A DNA stretch of 64,000 nucleotides from Ezakiella massiliensis (lineage in GTDB: Bacteria > Bacillota > Clostridia > Tissierellales > Peptoniphilaceae): assembly GCF_900120165.1 (NCBI RefSeq), contig NZ_LT635475.1, positions 62,001-126,000 on the forward strand. Reading direction: 5' to 3'. The position numbers and the translations under genes were made by a program. Position 1 is the stretch's first letter, and every line of letters starts with the position of its first letter. Below the pieces are notes generated by a model, which was given only the letters and a program-made list of their open reading frames with translations, was not told the origin of the DNA and did no database searches. This document shows, piece after piece, positions 46,245 to 53,729 of this stretch.

Positions 46245-47366
46245 ATGATTTATTTTGACAACGCTGCAACCACAAAGCCATCGAAAAATGCTGTGGATGC
46301 ATTTTTAAAATCTTGTGATGTATACTGGGCAAACCCTTCGGCCTTGCATAGCTTTGGCGAAGAGGTTTTCTTTGAGTTAAAAAAATCCAGAGACAATATT
46401 AAAAACTTACTTAATATTAAAAAAGGCGAAATATATTTTACGTCATCAGCCACTGAGTCCATTAATTTATTTTTCAAGGGGCTTTTGAAAAAAGAAGACC
46501 ATTTAATTATTTCCGAATATGAACACTCAGCTGTATATGAGTCAGCCAAGCTTTTTGAAAATGAAGGTGGAGAAGTTACTTATTTAAAAGCAAGAAATGG
46601 TATTATAGATCCAGAAGATGTCAGGGCAGCCATTAAAGATAATACAAAACTAGTTGCAATTATGTTTGTAAATAACGAAATTGGAGCCATTAATCCTGTT
46701 CAGGAAATTTCCAGGCTAATTAAAAATACAAATCCTAATATAAAATTTTTCGTTGATGGAGTCCAAGCTGTTGGCAAGACTCCTGTAGATTTAAATGAAC
46801 TAAATTGTGAAGGCTTTACCCTAAGTGCCCATAAATTCCACGGCTTAAAGGGGACTGGGCTCTTGTATGTGAAGGACACCCATATTCATCCGCAAATTTT
46901 GGGCGGCGGTCAAGAATCTGCTATGAGGTCGGGAACAGAAAATGTTGGAGGCATATTTGCACTTGATGCAGCCCTTGCTGACGCTGTGAACAATTTAGAA
47001 AAAAACATCGACTACGTAGGATCTATAAAGCAAAGATTTATAGATAATTTAAAAGATTTTCCAGAAGTAAGGATTAATTCACCGGAAACTTCTGTTCCTA
47101 ATATTTTAAATATCAGCTTCAAGGGCATAAAGGCCGAAGTCTTGGTACACATGCTTGAAGAATCTGAAATATATGTAAATACAAGTTCTGCTTGCAGCAA
47201 GAATGGTCATAAAAAATCCAGGACTCTGCTAGCTCTCGGTCTTTCGGATGAAGATATCAGGGGAGCACTTAGGTTTTCATTTTCAGATTACAATAGTCTT
47301 GAAGAAGTGGATTTTGCATGTGAAAAAATAAAAGAAGCTGTTGAAAGGATGAGATTAATATTATGA
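46245..47366 (+). CDS. Cysteine desulfurase (NifS/IscS-like)
   Basis: This 373-residue PLP enzyme starts MIYFDNAATTKPS. The PLP Lys is in SAHKFHGLKGTGLLYV, and the active-site Cys loop SSACSKNGHKKSRTLLALG is of the longer class I form. It moves sulfur from cysteine to the partner ThiI. The 4-base overlap with thiI supports a dedicated role in 4-thiouridine formation (NifZ-like arrangement in Bacillus). Some NifS proteins also act on selenocysteine, which is relevant in a selenium-using cell. Confidence 0.93.
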   Translation: MIYFDNAATTKPSKNAVDAFLKSCDVYWANPSALHSFGEEVFFELKKSRDNIKNLLNIKKGEIYFTSSATESINLFFKGLLKKEDHLIISEYEHSAVYESAKLFENEGGEVTYLKARNGIIDPEDVRAAIKDNTKLVAIMFVNNEIGAINPVQEISRLIKNTNPNIKFFVDGVQAVGKTPVDLNELNCEGFTLSAHKFHGLKGTGLLYVKDTHIHPQILGGGQESAMRSGTENVGGIFALDAALADAVNNLEKNIDYVGSIKQRFIDNLKDFPEVRINSPETSVPNILNISFKGIKAEVLVHMLEESEIYVNTSSACSKNGHKKSRTLLALGLSDEDIRGALRFSFSDYNSLEEVDFACEKIKEAVERMRLIL

Positions 47367-48520
47367 GAAAATGCATATCTTTAAGTTATGGTGAGATTGC
47401 TCTAAAAAAAGAAAACAGGCCATACTTTGAAAATATTTTAATAAAAAACATCAAAACAGCTTTGAAAGATTTGGATATTTCACTTAAAAAAGACCAATCT
47501 AAAATCTATATTTATACTGAAGAATATGAAAAAGCCATTGAACTTTTAAAACCAATTTTTGGAATTTCCTATATTTCTTTGCAGTTTGAAACTGACCAAG
47601 ATATGGATTCTATTTATGAAACTGCCATTGCAGCTATGGATTACGAAAGGGATAACTCAGTTGTCAAAACTTTTAAAGTTGAGACCAAAAGGGCAGATAA
47701 AAAATTCCCCCTAAAGAGCCCTGAAATTTCAAGACTGGTTGGAGGTCATATCCTAAAACATTATAAGGATTTAAAAGTAGATGTAAACAATCCAGATATA
47801 ATTTTAAGGGTTGATATTAGAAAAAACGCCTTTGTATCTGGCAATCGTATAAAAGCCATGGGCGGTATGCCCGTTGGATCAAATGGAAGAGCCTTGTCGC
47901 TTTTGTCTGGTGGTATAGATTCTCCAGTTGCGTCAATACTTGCCATGAAGCGTGGACTTTCTTGTGACTTTATACATTTTCACTCTTATCCATTCACAAG
48001 TGCTAAATCTTTTGACAAGACAAAAGATTTAGCTATTTTATCATCAAAATACCAGCCACACGCTATGTTATTTTCCTTTAACCTAGTTAAGATTCAAGAG
48101 GAAATAACTAAGAATTGCGATATAAGATTTACTACAATTTTGCAACGCAGGTCAATGATTAGGCTTGCTACAAGACTTTGCAAGGACCTCGATAGGTCAG
48201 CGCTTGTTACAGGTGAAAATCTGGGTCAAGTGGCCAGCCAAACCTTGTCTGGCATGAGCGTTGTAGACCCTGTTACAGATTTAATGATACTAAGACCACT
48301 TATATGTTTTGACAAAAACGAAATAGTGGGATTGGCAAGACAATATGGAACTTATGAGACCTCAATTCTTCCATACGAGGACTGCTGTACAGTTTTCGTA
48401 GCCAAACATCCAAAGACAAATCCAACCTTAGACCAAGTTTTGGCAGAGGAAGCAAAAATAGATTTTGCAAGTCTTGAGGATGAAATTTACAAGAGCAGGG
48501 AAGAAAACTTAATTAAATAA
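47363..48520 (+). CDS. thiI: tRNA 4-thiouridine synthase ThiI (no rhodanese domain)
   Basis: This 385-residue protein has a ferredoxin-like N-terminus, a THUMP domain (about 60-165) and a PP-loop ATPase with SGGIDSPVAS (about 178-187). YEDCCTVFVAKHPKTNP lies near the C-terminus. The E. coli-type rhodanese extension is absent, as usual for Firmicutes paired with a dedicated desulfurase. It thiolates U8 of tRNAs. It overlaps the desulfurase gene by 4 bases. Confidence 0.95.
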   Translation: MRKCISLSYGEIALKKENRPYFENILIKNIKTALKDLDISLKKDQSKIYIYTEEYEKAIELLKPIFGISYISLQFETDQDMDSIYETAIAAMDYERDNSVVKTFKVETKRADKKFPLKSPEISRLVGGHILKHYKDLKVDVNNPDIILRVDIRKNAFVSGNRIKAMGGMPVGSNGRALSLLSGGIDSPVASILAMKRGLSCDFIHFHSYPFTSAKSFDKTKDLAILSSKYQPHAMLFSFNLVKIQEEITKNCDIRFTTILQRRSMIRLATRLCKDLDRSALVTGENLGQVASQTLSGMSVVDPVTDLMILRPLICFDKNEIVGLARQYGTYETSILPYEDCCTVFVAKHPKTNPTLDQVLAEEAKIDFASLEDEIYKSREENLIK

Positions 48521-48555: not shown

Positions 48556-48579
48556 TAAAAAAGACCCTTTCGGGTCTTA
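48556..48579 (-). terminator. Terminator of the selenoprotein gene
   Basis: On the minus strand AAGACCC-GAAA-GGGTCTT followed by T6 lies 4 bases after the TAA stop. The T tract exists only in the minus orientation, so it belongs to the minus-strand gene. Confidence 0.88.
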
Positions 48580-48582
48580 GTC

Positions 48583-48879
48583 TTAAGCTTGCACTGCAAG
48601 CTCTTCAGCTATATATTGGTCAAGTTCGGCTTCATCAAAAATAAGCCTTTCATTGTCGCCAATAGCTAAGCATGGTAATCCTAGTTTTCCAGATTCAATT
48701 ACCGGTTTAAATTCTGGAGCATTCTCTCTTAGGGCTAAATATTTTTTGAGAAAGCCTAGGGATGATGTGATATCTAGGTATAAGAACCTTATACCAGCCT
48801 TTTCAAGTTTTTCCTTGAATGGGCCACAGCTAACTCACATGCTGCTACCATATACAATTTTCTTTTGCATTTTTGCCAT
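48583..48879 (-). CDS. Glutaredoxin-like selenoprotein, UxxC motif (in-frame TGA read as selenocysteine)
   Basis: A 98-codon minus-strand frame runs from ATG 48879 to TAA 48583, interrupted only by TGA at codon 15 (48837-48835). Read as Sec (U), the protein begins MAKMQKKIVYGSSMUVSCGP: a beta strand, then U15-x2-C18 exactly where thioredoxin-fold redoxins carry CxxC. Next come a helix (FKEKLEKAG), a second strand (RFLYLDITSS) and a cis-Pro loop GLPCLAIGD, all as in glutaredoxin-related proteins. A GGAGGTG site lies 9 bases before the ATG, and a terminator follows the stop. A SECIS-like hairpin begins 13 nt into the UGA-containing segment. The selenium trait is supported by mnmH. It is a probable thiol/selenol oxidoreductase. 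Standard gene finding would miss or truncate it. The alternative, a nonsense pseudogene, is less likely given the intact reading frame. Confidence 0.87.
48796..48825 (-). promoter_or_regulatory. Bacterial SECIS candidate
   Basis: Counting the U of UGA as 1, nt 14-16 (GCC) pair with 39-41 (GGC). Nt 19-24 (UUCAAG) pair with 31-36 (CUUGAA). The apical loop is GAAAAA (25-30). The distance from UGA to the loop is about 22 nt, within the range used by bacterial SelB-dependent SECIS elements. Confidence 0.6.
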
Positions 48880-48899
48880 TGTTAAACACCTCCAGAAAT

Positions 48900-48905
48900 A
48901 TTATA
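48900..48905 (-). promoter_or_regulatory. -10 box of the selenoprotein gene
   Basis: TATAAT on the minus strand lies 20 bases before the start codon. The -35 region is not convincing. Confidence 0.45.
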
Positions 48906-48964
48906 CCACAATTAATTATATATAAAACTTTAATGATAATTTTTATAAAAAAGGAAGTGATAAA

Positions 48965-49999
48965 ATGTCTGAAAAATTTTTAAGTTTACAAAATATTCAT
49001 AAAGAATACGATGGACAAATCGTACTCGATGATTTAAATTTGGACATCAAAGAAGGGGAGTTTATAACTCTATTGGGGCCTTCAGGTTGCGGCAAAACCA
49101 CAACTTTGCGTATGATTGGAGGATTTATTCAACCGGATTCTGGCCAAATTCTCTTTGAAGGTAGAGACATAACTCACCTAAAACCTAATGAAAGAAAAGT
49201 AAATACTGTTTTCCAAAAGTATGCACTATTTCCACACTTAGACGTTTTTGAAAACATAGCCTTTGGTTTGAGACTTAAAAAAGTTGATGAGGCAACTATC
49301 AAGAAAAAAGTTTCAAGAATGCTTGACTTAGTAAACTTATCTGGTTACGAGAAGAGGGCAGTTACATCACTTTCAGGAGGTCAACAACAAAGAATTGCTA
49401 TAGCCAGAGCTCTGGTTAATGAACCAAAAATTTTACTTTTAGACGAACCTCTTGGAGCTCTTGACAATAAATTGAGAAAGGGCATGCAGACCGAACTTAT
49501 TAACATGCAATGGGAACTTGGCATTACCTTTGTTTTTGTTACCCACGACCAAGAAGAAGCCCTTTCAATGAGCGATCGTATAGTAGTTATGAACGATGGA
49601 AAAATTGAACAACTTGGCAAGCCAATAGACATTTATAATGAGCCTGCCAATGCTTTTGTTGCAGACTTTATTGGCGAAAGCAATATTTTTGAAGGCGTCT
49701 ATAATGGAGATTATAGTGTTACATTTGCTGACCATGCCTTTAAATGTGTTGATAAGGGTTTTGCAGCTGGCGAAAAAGTTGATGTTGTTCTTCGCCCGGA
49801 AGATATTATTATTTCTAAAACAGATAACGGCAAGGTCAAAGGTGTTGTTGAAAATGAAATCTTTAAAGGTGTTCACTATGAAATACTCGTAAATGTTGAT
49901 GGTGAAATATGGAAGGTTAAGTCAACCCTATCAAGCAGTGAGGATTCTACAGTTTGGTTAGACGTTGACCCAGAAAACATCCATGTTATGAGGAAGTAG
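48965..49999 (+). CDS. potA: Spermidine/putrescine ABC transporter ATP-binding protein
   Basis: This 344-residue importer ATPase has Walker [10 protein letters not shown] (about 38-46), Q-loop [11 protein letters not shown], signature LSGGQQQR, Walker [13 protein letters not shown] and H-loop VTHDQEEA. The C-terminal TOBE regulatory domain starts near residue 240 ([10 protein letters not shown]...VVLRPEDI). It energises polyamine uptake together with potBCD, which follow directly in the same order as in other bacteria. The ATG is preceded by AAGGAAG. Confidence 0.94.
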
Positions 50000-50826: not shown

Positions 50827-51623
50827 TGAAAAACTTTTTGAAGAAATTTTATACCTACTTTATTTATTTTTTCTTTTATATGCCGATTATTGTCTTAATT
50901 GTATACTCATTTAATGCCACCAAATCTCGCGTTGTCTGGGGGGGCTTTAGCCTAAGATGGTACAAAGATCTATTTCAAAACAGGCAAGTACTCATGAGTT
51001 TTTACAATACATTTTTTATTGGTATTGTTTCTACTGCAATTTCTACTGTAATTGGAACTATTGGTGCAATAGGATTATATAGCTCCAAGGGTAGATTTAA
51101 GAGCCTAATGCTCGATATAAACTACCTGCCCATACTAAATCCTGATATTGTTATTGCAGTTAGTCTAGTAGCTCTATACAATTTCTTAAGGATTAGATTT
51201 GGATATGTAACTATTATTCTTAGCCATGTTGCATTTCTAACCCCTTATGTATTATTTAATGTAATGCCAAGGCTTTACAGCATGGATCCTAACCTATACG
51301 AGGCAGCCCTTGATTTGGGTGCCAACAGGAGGCAAGCCTTTTTTAAGGTCCTCTTGCCTGAAATTAAACCGGGCATTTTAAGTGGGGCCTTGATGGCATT
51401 TACACTTTCAATTGACGATTTCGTTGTAAGTTTTTTCACTACAGGCAACGGAATCCAAAACATTTCTATAACCGTATGGTCAATGGCTAGACGCGGGATT
51501 AATCCAGTTATTAATGCTTTGTCCGCACTTATGTTTGTCATTATGGTTTCACTTGTAGTGGTTATTAATTTAAGAAATAAAAAGGAGAAAGAAAACCAAC
51601 TTGGAAAAGCTAAGAAAAACTAA
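50826..51623 (+). CDS. potC: Spermidine/putrescine ABC transporter permease PotC
   Basis: This 265-residue second permease subunit has six membrane segments. It has the N-terminal YMPIIVLIVYSFN, GGFSLRWYKDLF (typical PotC), and the EAA loop EAALDLGANRRQAFFKVLLPEI. It overlaps the start of the first potD by 23 bases. Confidence 0.94.
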   Translation: MKNFLKKFYTYFIYFFFYMPIIVLIVYSFNATKSRVVWGGFSLRWYKDLFQNRQVLMSFYNTFFIGIVSTAISTVIGTIGAIGLYSSKGRFKSLMLDINYLPILNPDIVIAVSLVALYNFLRIRFGYVTIILSHVAFLTPYVLFNVMPRLYSMDPNLYEAALDLGANRRQAFFKVLLPEIKPGILSGALMAFTLSIDDFVVSFFTTGNGIQNISITVWSMARRGINPVINALSALMFVIMVSLVVVINLRNKKEKENQLGKAKKN

Positions 51624-52662
51624 TATTATTTTTATGATTATAGTTATAATTACTTCTGCATTTTTATTGGCTTGCCAAGGGCAAGACCAAGGAAAAGATG
51701 AAAAAGAACTTGTAATTTATAACTGGGGCGACTATATGGACCCCGCACTTATAGAAAAATTTGAAAAGCAAGAGGGCATAAGAGTTATTTACAATGAATA
51801 TGCCACTAACGAAGACTTGTTTGTAAAATTAAAAAATTCCAACGAGCAGATCGATCTTATAATTCCATCAGATTATATGCTTGAGAGACTTATAAAAGAG
51901 GATTTAATACAAAAGATAAATAAGAACAATATTAAAAATCTAAAAAATGTAAATCCAATTTTTATAAATCAAGAGTGCAATCCAAACGGGGACTATGGCG
52001 TTCCTTATCTCTGGCAAACAGTAGGGATTATATACAATTCTGAAAAATATCCGGACGGCCTCTATGCATGGGCAGACTTGTGGAATGAAAAATATGATAA
52101 GGATATGGTTCTCTACAATGCTCAAAGGGATGTCTTGACAATAGCCTTAAAAAAGCTGGGCTATTCTATTAACACTGATAATATTTCAGAGTTGAAGGAA
52201 GCAGAAGAAGAACTCTTGAAGCAAAAAGAGATTAATTATGCTTACCTTGGAGACGAAATCAAGGACGTACTTGTAAATGAAGACGCTGGCATAGGCGTTG
52301 TTTACTCTGGTGATGCTGGTATTATTATGAGCCAAAATAGCAAATTTAAATTTGTTATTCCAAAGGAAGGCTCAAATATGGCCATTGACTTTATGGCAAT
52401 TCCCAAAAATGCTGAACACAAGGAAATAGCAGAAAAATTTATTGATTTCATGCTCCAAGAAGAAAACGCACTTCAAAACACAGAATATCTTATGTACAAC
52501 ACGCCTATTGACAGCGTCAAGGAAAAGCTGCCAAAAGAGATATTGGCCTATGACTTATATCCATCTGAAGATGAGTTAAAGAGGCTCACGGTTTACAAGG
52601 ATATGAGCAAGTACAACAAAATTTACGACCAAATTTGGACAGAAATAACTTCTGGCTTATAA
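51601..52662 (+). CDS. potD: Spermidine/putrescine-binding lipoprotein PotD, first copy
   Basis: This 353-residue polyamine-binding lipoprotein starts at TTG 51601, with AAAGGAG upstream inside potC. The lipobox is AFLLAC (Cys about residue 25). The mature part shows LVIYNWGDYMDP, DLIIPSDYMLERL, GVPYLWQTVGIIYN and GVVYSGDAGII, the polyamine pocket segments of the PotD/PotF family. It delivers polyamines to PotBC. Confidence 0.93.
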   Translation: MEKLRKTNIIFMIIVIITSAFLLACQGQDQGKDEKELVIYNWGDYMDPALIEKFEKQEGIRVIYNEYATNEDLFVKLKNSNEQIDLIIPSDYMLERLIKEDLIQKINKNNIKNLKNVNPIFINQECNPNGDYGVPYLWQTVGIIYNSEKYPDGLYAWADLWNEKYDKDMVLYNAQRDVLTIALKKLGYSINTDNISELKEAEEELLKQKEINYAYLGDEIKDVLVNEDAGIGVVYSGDAGIIMSQNSKFKFVIPKEGSNMAIDFMAIPKNAEHKEIAEKFIDFMLQEENALQNTEYLMYNTPIDSVKEKLPKEILAYDLYPSEDELKRLTVYKDMSKYNKIYDQIWTEITSGL

Positions 52663-52691: not shown

Positions 52692-53729
52692 TTGAAAAGA
52701 ATATTAAGAGTAATTTTAATTGCAATATTAACTTTATTTGTCCTAAGCGGATGCTCGTCTTCTAAAGAAAAGCTATATGTTTTTAATGTTGGAGACTATA
52801 TGGATATGGATCTTATTAAAGAGTTTGAAGAAGAGTTTGATTGCAGGGTTATTTATGAAGAATTCGCTTCAAATGAGGACCTTTTTGTAAAGATAAAAAC
52901 ATCCAAACAAGCTTATGATGTAATTTTCCCATCAGACTATATGGTTGAACGCCTTGTAAGCCAAGACTTGGTTCAAAAGCTTGATAAGGACAAAATTGAA
53001 AATTATAAATATATTGACGATTATTATTTGAACAGAGATTTTGATCCAAACAACGATTTCTCACTTCCATACATGGCAGGGACTGTTGGCATAGTCTACA
53101 ATGCAGAAAAATATCCTGAAGGGATTCATAAATGGGCCGACCTGTGGGACGAAAAGTATGAAAGGGATGTTGTCCTTTATTATTCTCAAAGAGACGTGCT
53201 CATGGTTGCCTTAAAAAAACTCGGCTATAGTATGAACACACAAAACCCTGATGAACTTGAAGCAGCAAAAACAGAGCTTATTATGCAAAAGCCATTGATA
53301 TATGGGTATTTAGGCGATGAAATAAAAGACATATTGGTTGCAGAAGACGCCAATATCGGAGTTGTATATTCAGGTGATGCTGGAATTATAACATCACTCA
53401 ATGATGATTTTAAATACTCCATCCCAAAAGAGGGGACTAATCTGTGGATAGACTTAATGGCGATTCCAAAGAGCGCTCAGAATCCAGAACTTGCTTATGA
53501 GTTTATAAACTTTTTATTAAGACCTGATATTCAAGCTAGAAACGCAGAGTATCTTCAATATTCAACAATTTCATCAGAGGCCAAGAAGATGCTTCCAGAT
53601 GAAATTAAAAATAATCCAGCCCTATATCCACCAGAAGAAGATCTAAAGAACACTGAAGTTTTCACAGATCCAACTGATGTTATCGAACTATACGATAGGA
53701 TTTGGACTGAGGTTTTATCTGGCCTATAA
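52692..53729 (+). CDS. Spermidine/putrescine-binding lipoprotein PotD, second copy
   Basis: This 345-residue paralogue of the preceding gene lies 29 bases downstream. It starts at TTG behind a GGGGGG-rich site; the lipobox is VLSGC (Cys about residue 21). It is collinear with the first copy (VFNVGDYMDMDLI, DVIFPSDYMVERLV, SLPYMAGTVGIVYN, GVVYSGDAGIITS, IWTEVLSGL) but clearly diverged: NWGDYMDP has become NVGDYMDM, so the Trp near the pocket is lost. Both copies end the same way and probably share the PotABC core with different ligand preference. Confidence 0.9.
   Translation: MKRILRVILIAILTLFVLSGCSSSKEKLYVFNVGDYMDMDLIKEFEEEFDCRVIYEEFASNEDLFVKIKTSKQAYDVIFPSDYMVERLVSQDLVQKLDKDKIENYKYIDDYYLNRDFDPNNDFSLPYMAGTVGIVYNAEKYPEGIHKWADLWDEKYERDVVLYYSQRDVLMVALKKLGYSMNTQNPDELEAAKTELIMQKPLIYGYLGDEIKDILVAEDANIGVVYSGDAGIITSLNDDFKYSIPKEGTNLWIDLMAIPKSAQNPELAYEFINFLLRPDIQARNAEYLQYSTISSEAKKMLPDEIKNNPALYPPEEDLKNTEVFTDPTDVIELYDRIWTEVLSGL

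Follow-up and report, generated by a model that had tools for sequence, protein, structure and literature searches.

A minus-strand frame in the 64-kb window analysed here (G000:C1:62001-126000, from the 1.74-Mb single-contig genome of Ezakiella massiliensis, G000) is very probably a functional selenoprotein gene, in which the UGA at codon 15 would be read as selenocysteine (Sec) and whose predicted product is a small oxidoreductase of the glutaredoxin fold. The UGA is almost certainly a Sec codon, since relatives carry either Cys or the same UGA at this active-site position and since the genome holds the full machinery for Sec.

Translation of the frame gave 98 residues followed by TAA, with a single TGA at codon 15, just as a preliminary description of this DNA had claimed. 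The active site reads M-U-V-S-C, and the U-x2-C that had been placed at the redoxin active site is thus found as UVSC, aligned to the catalytic Cys of solved glutaredoxins. The cis-Pro loop proposed for the later part of the chain is represented by GLPC, in which Pro69 is the putative cis-Pro. A good ribosome-binding site and a terminator had also been ascribed to the frame; these correspond to a GGAGG and to a terminator-like hairpin (Table 1), of which the hairpin scan found one compared to a mean of 0.2 in shuffled sequence. A promoter scan returned two matches, both at other places and a yield not above that of shuffled sequence, and the TATAAT box of TGGTATAAT was not among them. It should be underlined that the frame alone proves little, since the 64-kb window contains 11 frames that have a single TGA and run to 98 codons or more; it is conservation that takes this frame beyond chance. 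On the plus strand it is shadowed by an ORF of 90 aa with a TTG start (48653-48925), and it is flanked by genes that by eye are thiI-like (47363-48520, plus) and potA-like, encoding an ABC ATPase (48965-49999, plus). Rfam models at their gathering score detected nothing in the 64-kb window beyond one tRNA. Further along, after the potA- and potBC-like genes, lie two similar tandem genes (51601-52662 and 52692-53729), judged by eye to be spermidine/putrescine-binding-like.

Table 1. Features at the redoxin locus, in positions of the 64-kb window.
Feature	Position	Strand	Basis
Glutaredoxin-like selenoprotein frame, 98 codons, UGA as Sec	48583..48879	minus	translation and homologue comparison
UGA codon 15, Sec of the UxxC active site	48835..48837	minus	opposite Cys in Cys-form relatives; TGA in 18 other genomes
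Shine-Dalgarno sequence GGAGG	48889..48893	minus	by eye; conserved in four species
Extended -10 promoter-like box TGGTATAAT	48900..48908	minus	by eye; GGTATAAT or GGTATCAT in four species
Intrinsic-terminator-like hairpin and T run	48561..48578	minus	hairpin scan; conserved in sister G046
SECIS-like hairpin, upper stem UUCAAG/CUUGAA, 6-nt loop GAAAAA (48808-48813), loop start 21 nt past UGA	48793..48830	minus	folding and model constraints
Second hairpin GGUAUAAG-GUU-CUUAUACC, adjoining the first	48777..48795	minus	folding, species comparison

The homologues were examined in two sets of genomes. In the family set, 99 of 130 genomes gave matches at E <= 0.001, the weak ones including other redoxins, and in six genomes a TGA was found exactly at the first active-site Cys: three species of Ezakiella (G000, G047 and G049, with CPDC in G046) and, outside the genus, G051, G085 and G074. 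A profile search of 391 genomes of the class, a set that overlaps the family set in part, produced a match in 149 and revealed 13 further genomes with TGA at the same codon, in the forms UPDC, UPGC, UGGC, UQDC, UPQC, UPEC and UKDC. The TGA-bearing genomes therefore number at least 19 (6 from the family and 13 from the class), as read in the loci that were retrieved, and CxxC was seen in 37 other genomes whose loci were retrieved and placed. All 19 Sec forms found keep both the second Cys of UxxC and the Pro loop. Position 15 had been singled out in the preliminary description as the place to compare, and the close homologues indeed keep the frame with Cys or TGA there, further damage not being seen. 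An in-frame UGA opposite Cys or UGA in homologues, one of the criteria for a selenoprotein gene, is thus what the alignment presents.

Five weak class matches with one TGA (G283, G211, G184, G238 and a second match in G335, E ~1e-5) were left out of the count of 19; these may be other selenoproteins, and the loci of G283 and G211 showed no clear member of the redoxin group. A plasmid collection gave four weak matches, of which the one from Acetoanaerobium was translated (37%) and is a Cys form. The Acetoanaerobium noterae record in question (L082, NZ_CP154629.1) carries this Cys-form redoxin on 2.6 Mb deposited as a plasmid, which judged by its size looks like a chromosome. The gene-neighbourhood comparison found no conserved neighbour or partner gene across the redoxin loci. 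Some Cys-form copies are located after a gene that by eye is glycyl-tRNA-synthetase-like, and in L033 and L036 (G120 and G111) a Cys-form relative shares one 233-aa ORF, starting MKILLDADGSP, with about 145 preceding unidentified residues, either as a candidate fusion or with a possible inner start.

With regard to the machinery, the genome of E. massiliensis contains, at 182769, a tRNA-Sec whose anticodon is UCA, and the mutually adjoining genes selB, selA and selD at 282254-286539. The absence of selB or tRNA-Sec had been named beforehand as grounds against a selenoprotein; both are present, as are selA and selD, and SelA, SelB, SelD and tRNA-Sec together in one genome are a further criterion for a selenoprotein gene. 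In-frame TGA codons also occur in GrdA and GrdB (G000:C1:492534-494075) and in SelD (285616-286539), the selenoproteins of glycine reductase and selenophosphate synthetase; in GrdB the TGA lies just beyond the end of the Pfam match, within UxxCxxC. A selenoprotein MsrA, which work on Alkaliphilus oremlandii is said to suggest as a possible partner, was discarded, as neither of the two MsrA matches in the genome has an in-frame stop. SelB scored above its curated cut-off in all 19 TGA genomes. Within the family, SelB was present in 6/6 TGA genomes compared to 42/124 others (Fisher p = 0.002), and within the class in 13/13 compared to 3/9 of the Cys-form genomes tested (p = 0.001), both p-values being optimistic because the rows are related and the counts not independent.

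A SECIS-like hairpin had been claimed to follow the UGA, and both its folding and its geometry bear this out. The bacterial SECIS model given in PMC13188914 has a loop of 3-9 nt on a stem of 4-16 bp, a G in the first two loop positions, a distance of 16-37 nt from the UGA and a minimum free energy of -7.5 kcal/mol or lower. The window hairpin lies within all these limits, with a 6-nt loop that begins with G, a 6-bp upper stem, a distance of 21 nt and an energy of -12.7 kcal/mol. Downstream of the UGA, a 66-nt stretch folded better than expected (z = -3.1, none of 200 shuffles as good), as did a 51-nt stretch (z = -2.1, 7/200 as good). When codons were shuffled synonymously, the hairpin was equalled by 2/100 and by 11/300 shuffles. 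Among the homologues, the hairpin was in the best 5% of such shuffles in 8/18 Sec rows compared to 1/37 Cys rows, and the ranks of the two groups differed with a Mann-Whitney p of 1e-6, which is likewise optimistic for these related rows. The loop started 21-23 nt past the UGA in 17 of the 18 Sec rows, a set that excludes G335, and the limits on loop, spacing, G and energy, applied with stem length not enforced, were passed by 10/18 Sec and 7/37 Cys rows (p = 0.011, read with the same caution).

The scan nevertheless does not amount to a validated SECIS detector, as its results on the positive controls of the same genome were mixed: 223/300 shuffles were as good for GrdA, 68/300 for SelD and 13/300 for GrdB, although GrdA and SelD are sure selenoproteins. 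Plain folding gave no excess for the TGA forms of G051 and G074 (z = 0.2 and 1.2, respectively). Covariation was dropped as the main proof of a SECIS, since only one of eight pairs had changed on both sides in the 14 Sec rows outside Ezakiella; these rows omit 5 of the 19 (the three of Ezakiella, G051 and G085), the hairpins of which are in another register. The second hairpin forms a perfect 8-bp stem that the three TGA species of Ezakiella retain and that, as judged by eye, is disrupted in the Cys species; this hairpin could be part of a longer element.

Selection past the UGA was judged from the three Sec species of Ezakiella. Over codons 16-95, the one pair with unsaturated synonymous sites (G000-G049) gave dS 2.28, dN 0.131 and dN/dS 0.057, while the pairs G000-G047 and G047-G049 were saturated at synonymous sites, with dN 0.065 and 0.141, respectively. 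The low dN/dS indicates that the protein after the stop is maintained, that is, it is under purifying selection. It is also evident that synonymous choice is frozen near the UGA, in the region of the hairpin. At sites with one amino acid in all three species, identical codons were found at 13/19 positions in codons 16-36 compared to 11/45 in codons 37-95 (p = 0.0016). Moreover, where the 11th codon from the UGA encodes Leu, it is CTT in 18/18 Sec rows compared to 14/29 Cys rows (p = 0.0002, optimistic for related rows), the Sec rows being drawn here from 19 with G335 included.

These observations bear on two ways of reading the TGA other than as Sec, both of which we rejected on conservation. 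A CxxC redoxin could have become a pseudogene through a nonsense mutation from TGT or TGC to TGA: Cys relatives are common, one base change would be enough, and at this locus one close sister carries a Cys form. Against this, the same TGA occupies the same codon in 19 genomes, every one of which has SelB; the frame is otherwise undamaged and is under purifying selection past the TGA; and the synonymous codons of the hairpin region are frozen, all of which makes a pseudogene very improbable. The other reading takes the UGA as a true stop, as it is in table 11, which would leave a 14-residue leader with a hairpin directly after it and the remainder either translated by re-initiation or regulatory only. 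However, codons 1-14 are in frame with the remainder and line up with the N-terminal strand of Cys-form redoxins, and a fold without them would miss both its first strand and its nucleophile; we consider a leader peptide extremely improbable.

The product, as predicted from its sequence, is a small redoxin of the glutaredoxin fold, nearest to the YruB and Uxx-star models and below their cut-offs. A profile of the group compared to solved glutaredoxins matched 7c10 best (E 2.8e-8) over the CxxC region, where the catalytic Cys lies opposite codon 15, and a second, weak piece placed GIP on the VP loop (Pro loop) of the 7c10/7c12 glutaredoxin. These two PDB entries, the closest solved sequences by profile, have CPHC opposite CxxC; unlike the window protein they contain Cys only, and their 84 residues do not include the RD..EF stretch of the window's subgroup. 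With PF00462 the window protein scored 15.4 bits compared to a gathering score of 22.9, whereas 8/8 chosen relatives scored above it. Its best NCBIfam match was YruB (TIGR02196), at 26.3 bits with a cut-off of 88.55; this model matches 21/22 members of the alignment at E <= 0.01, with scores far under the cut-off among the rows listed (best listed 53.2 bits). None of the nine rows with scores listed had an NCBIfam model reaching its cut-off, and as far as seen the subgroup is without a curated model of its own.

The Uxx-star models (NF041212, NF041114 and NF041211) likewise describe glutaredoxin-like proteins with Sec at the first active-site position. To our knowledge, these families are without a second Cys. 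The window's subgroup, in contrast, keeps UxxC, and its listed scores fall under the Uxx-star cut-offs. For Uxx-star family 1, Table 1 of PMC13188914 gives the motif as UxxT. The same paper suggests that SaoB, SaoC and UXX-star proteins may use their Sec to bind a metal, and together with the weak profile similarity to Uxx-star models this raises the alternative that Sec here serves metal or metalloid binding or other chemistry. We consider that role unlikely, since 19/19 Sec forms keep the second Cys and a Pro loop, features that mark a dithiol redox relay, and since the window protein scored far under the Uxx-star cut-off (20.6 compared to 66 bits for NF041212).

For the redox role that we prefer, the frame would be transcribed as a unit of its own between the promoter-like box and the terminator. 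Conservation and the machinery suggest that the UGA would be decoded by SelB and tRNA-Sec, helped by the hairpin with its apical loop 21 nt downstream. As judged by family knowledge and the alignment, Sec15 would be the attacking nucleophile of UVSC, with Cys18 as its resolving partner, the substrate groove would have Pro69 as its cis-Pro, and the most likely reaction would be the reduction of protein or low-molecular disulfides via a selenenyl-sulfide relay. A search of the genome with PF04262, which covers a single ligase family, found no glutamate-cysteine ligase; recycling by an enzyme of the thioredoxin-reductase type would therefore be likelier than recycling by glutathione, the reductase partner being a guess. 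We thus infer a glutathione-independent oxidoreductase.

Within Ezakiella, the site between potA and thiI shows three states: Sec in E. massiliensis, Cys in its closest sister G046 and no redoxin in two congeners (G045 and G048), where potA adjoins thiI. Between G000 and G046, the DNA is 92.1% identical in potA, 94.7% in part of potB and 94.2% in thiI, whereas identity is 71.5-77.6% for the redoxin together with its promoter. In 60-nt windows, some 100 nt before the UGA, identity drops from 98% to 68%, and it is back to 92% at about +260, which delimits an island of low identity of about 360 bp (window ~48577-48937, G000:C1:110577-110937, compared to locus L014 of G046) with 55-80% inside; a second dip, to 80-83%, lies inside potA. 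The redoxin pair has dS 1.73 and dN 0.184, compared to dS 0.41 and 0.30 and dN 0.016 and 0.007 for potA and thiI, respectively, and the last 60 codons of thiI, nearest to the redoxin, have dS 0.84. Identity and dS thus both indicate that the redoxin alleles are more diverged than their neighbours. This pattern would arise if one lineage had its allele replaced by recombination, or if an ancestor carried both alleles and its descendants lost different ones; locally faster change is the weaker reading. We give about an even chance to the idea that homologous recombination in the genes on either side swaps a whole redoxin cassette (Sec, Cys or absent) at this site within the genus. If true, such cassette exchange would be a natural experiment on when a single enzyme retains or abandons selenium.

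In a tree of 55 rows (18 Sec and 37 Cys), the Sec rows all fell within a single supported part (97/88), which also takes in 11 Cys rows. Five state changes are needed, at least four of them on starred branches, in a tree with a midpoint root, 88 columns, many forks open and G335 excluded, which indicates that Sec and Cys have been swapped more than once. According to PMC13188914, prokaryotes seldom change Sec to Cys, with FdhA and SelD as the main documented cases. That close relatives alternate between Sec and Cys suggests a common fold and role for both forms.

The window gene adds to an existing kind, since UxxC glutaredoxin selenoproteins are already known: Table 1 of PMC13188914 has glutaredoxin, with UxxC, among the verified selenoproteins and counts the Uxx-star families among the predicted ones, and PMC1794560 mentions Sec glutaredoxins in Alkaliphilus metalliredigenes (two), Moorella thermoacetica and Geobacter sulfurreducens. 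Such Sec glutaredoxins (PF00462) are also of the small glutaredoxin fold, with Sec first in UxxC and with Cys homologues; the window's subgroup differs from them by a stretch of some 12 additional residues that separates the active-site half from the GIP loop, seen by eye as LKxFLxxRDxxxEFxxxKxxGxIGIP. In the open-access literature we found no report of this UxxC redoxin subgroup and none of a UPDC selenocysteine glutaredoxin, and no paper among the matches listed dealt by title with Ezakiella selenoproteins; COG4545 occurred in one paper, which by its listing concerns gut microbiota in radiation proctitis. Earlier selenoprotein lists may hold the subgroup under the name glutaredoxin.

With the present gene, a UxxC redoxin group that is present in several families of the class joins the likely selenoproteins. 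As the nine rows listed all stayed below the cut-offs of the NCBIfam models, genes of this kind may be truncated or skipped in annotation. Finally, the occurrence of Sec, Cys and an empty state at one syntenic site in one genus offers a clean case for studying what keeps Sec over Cys.
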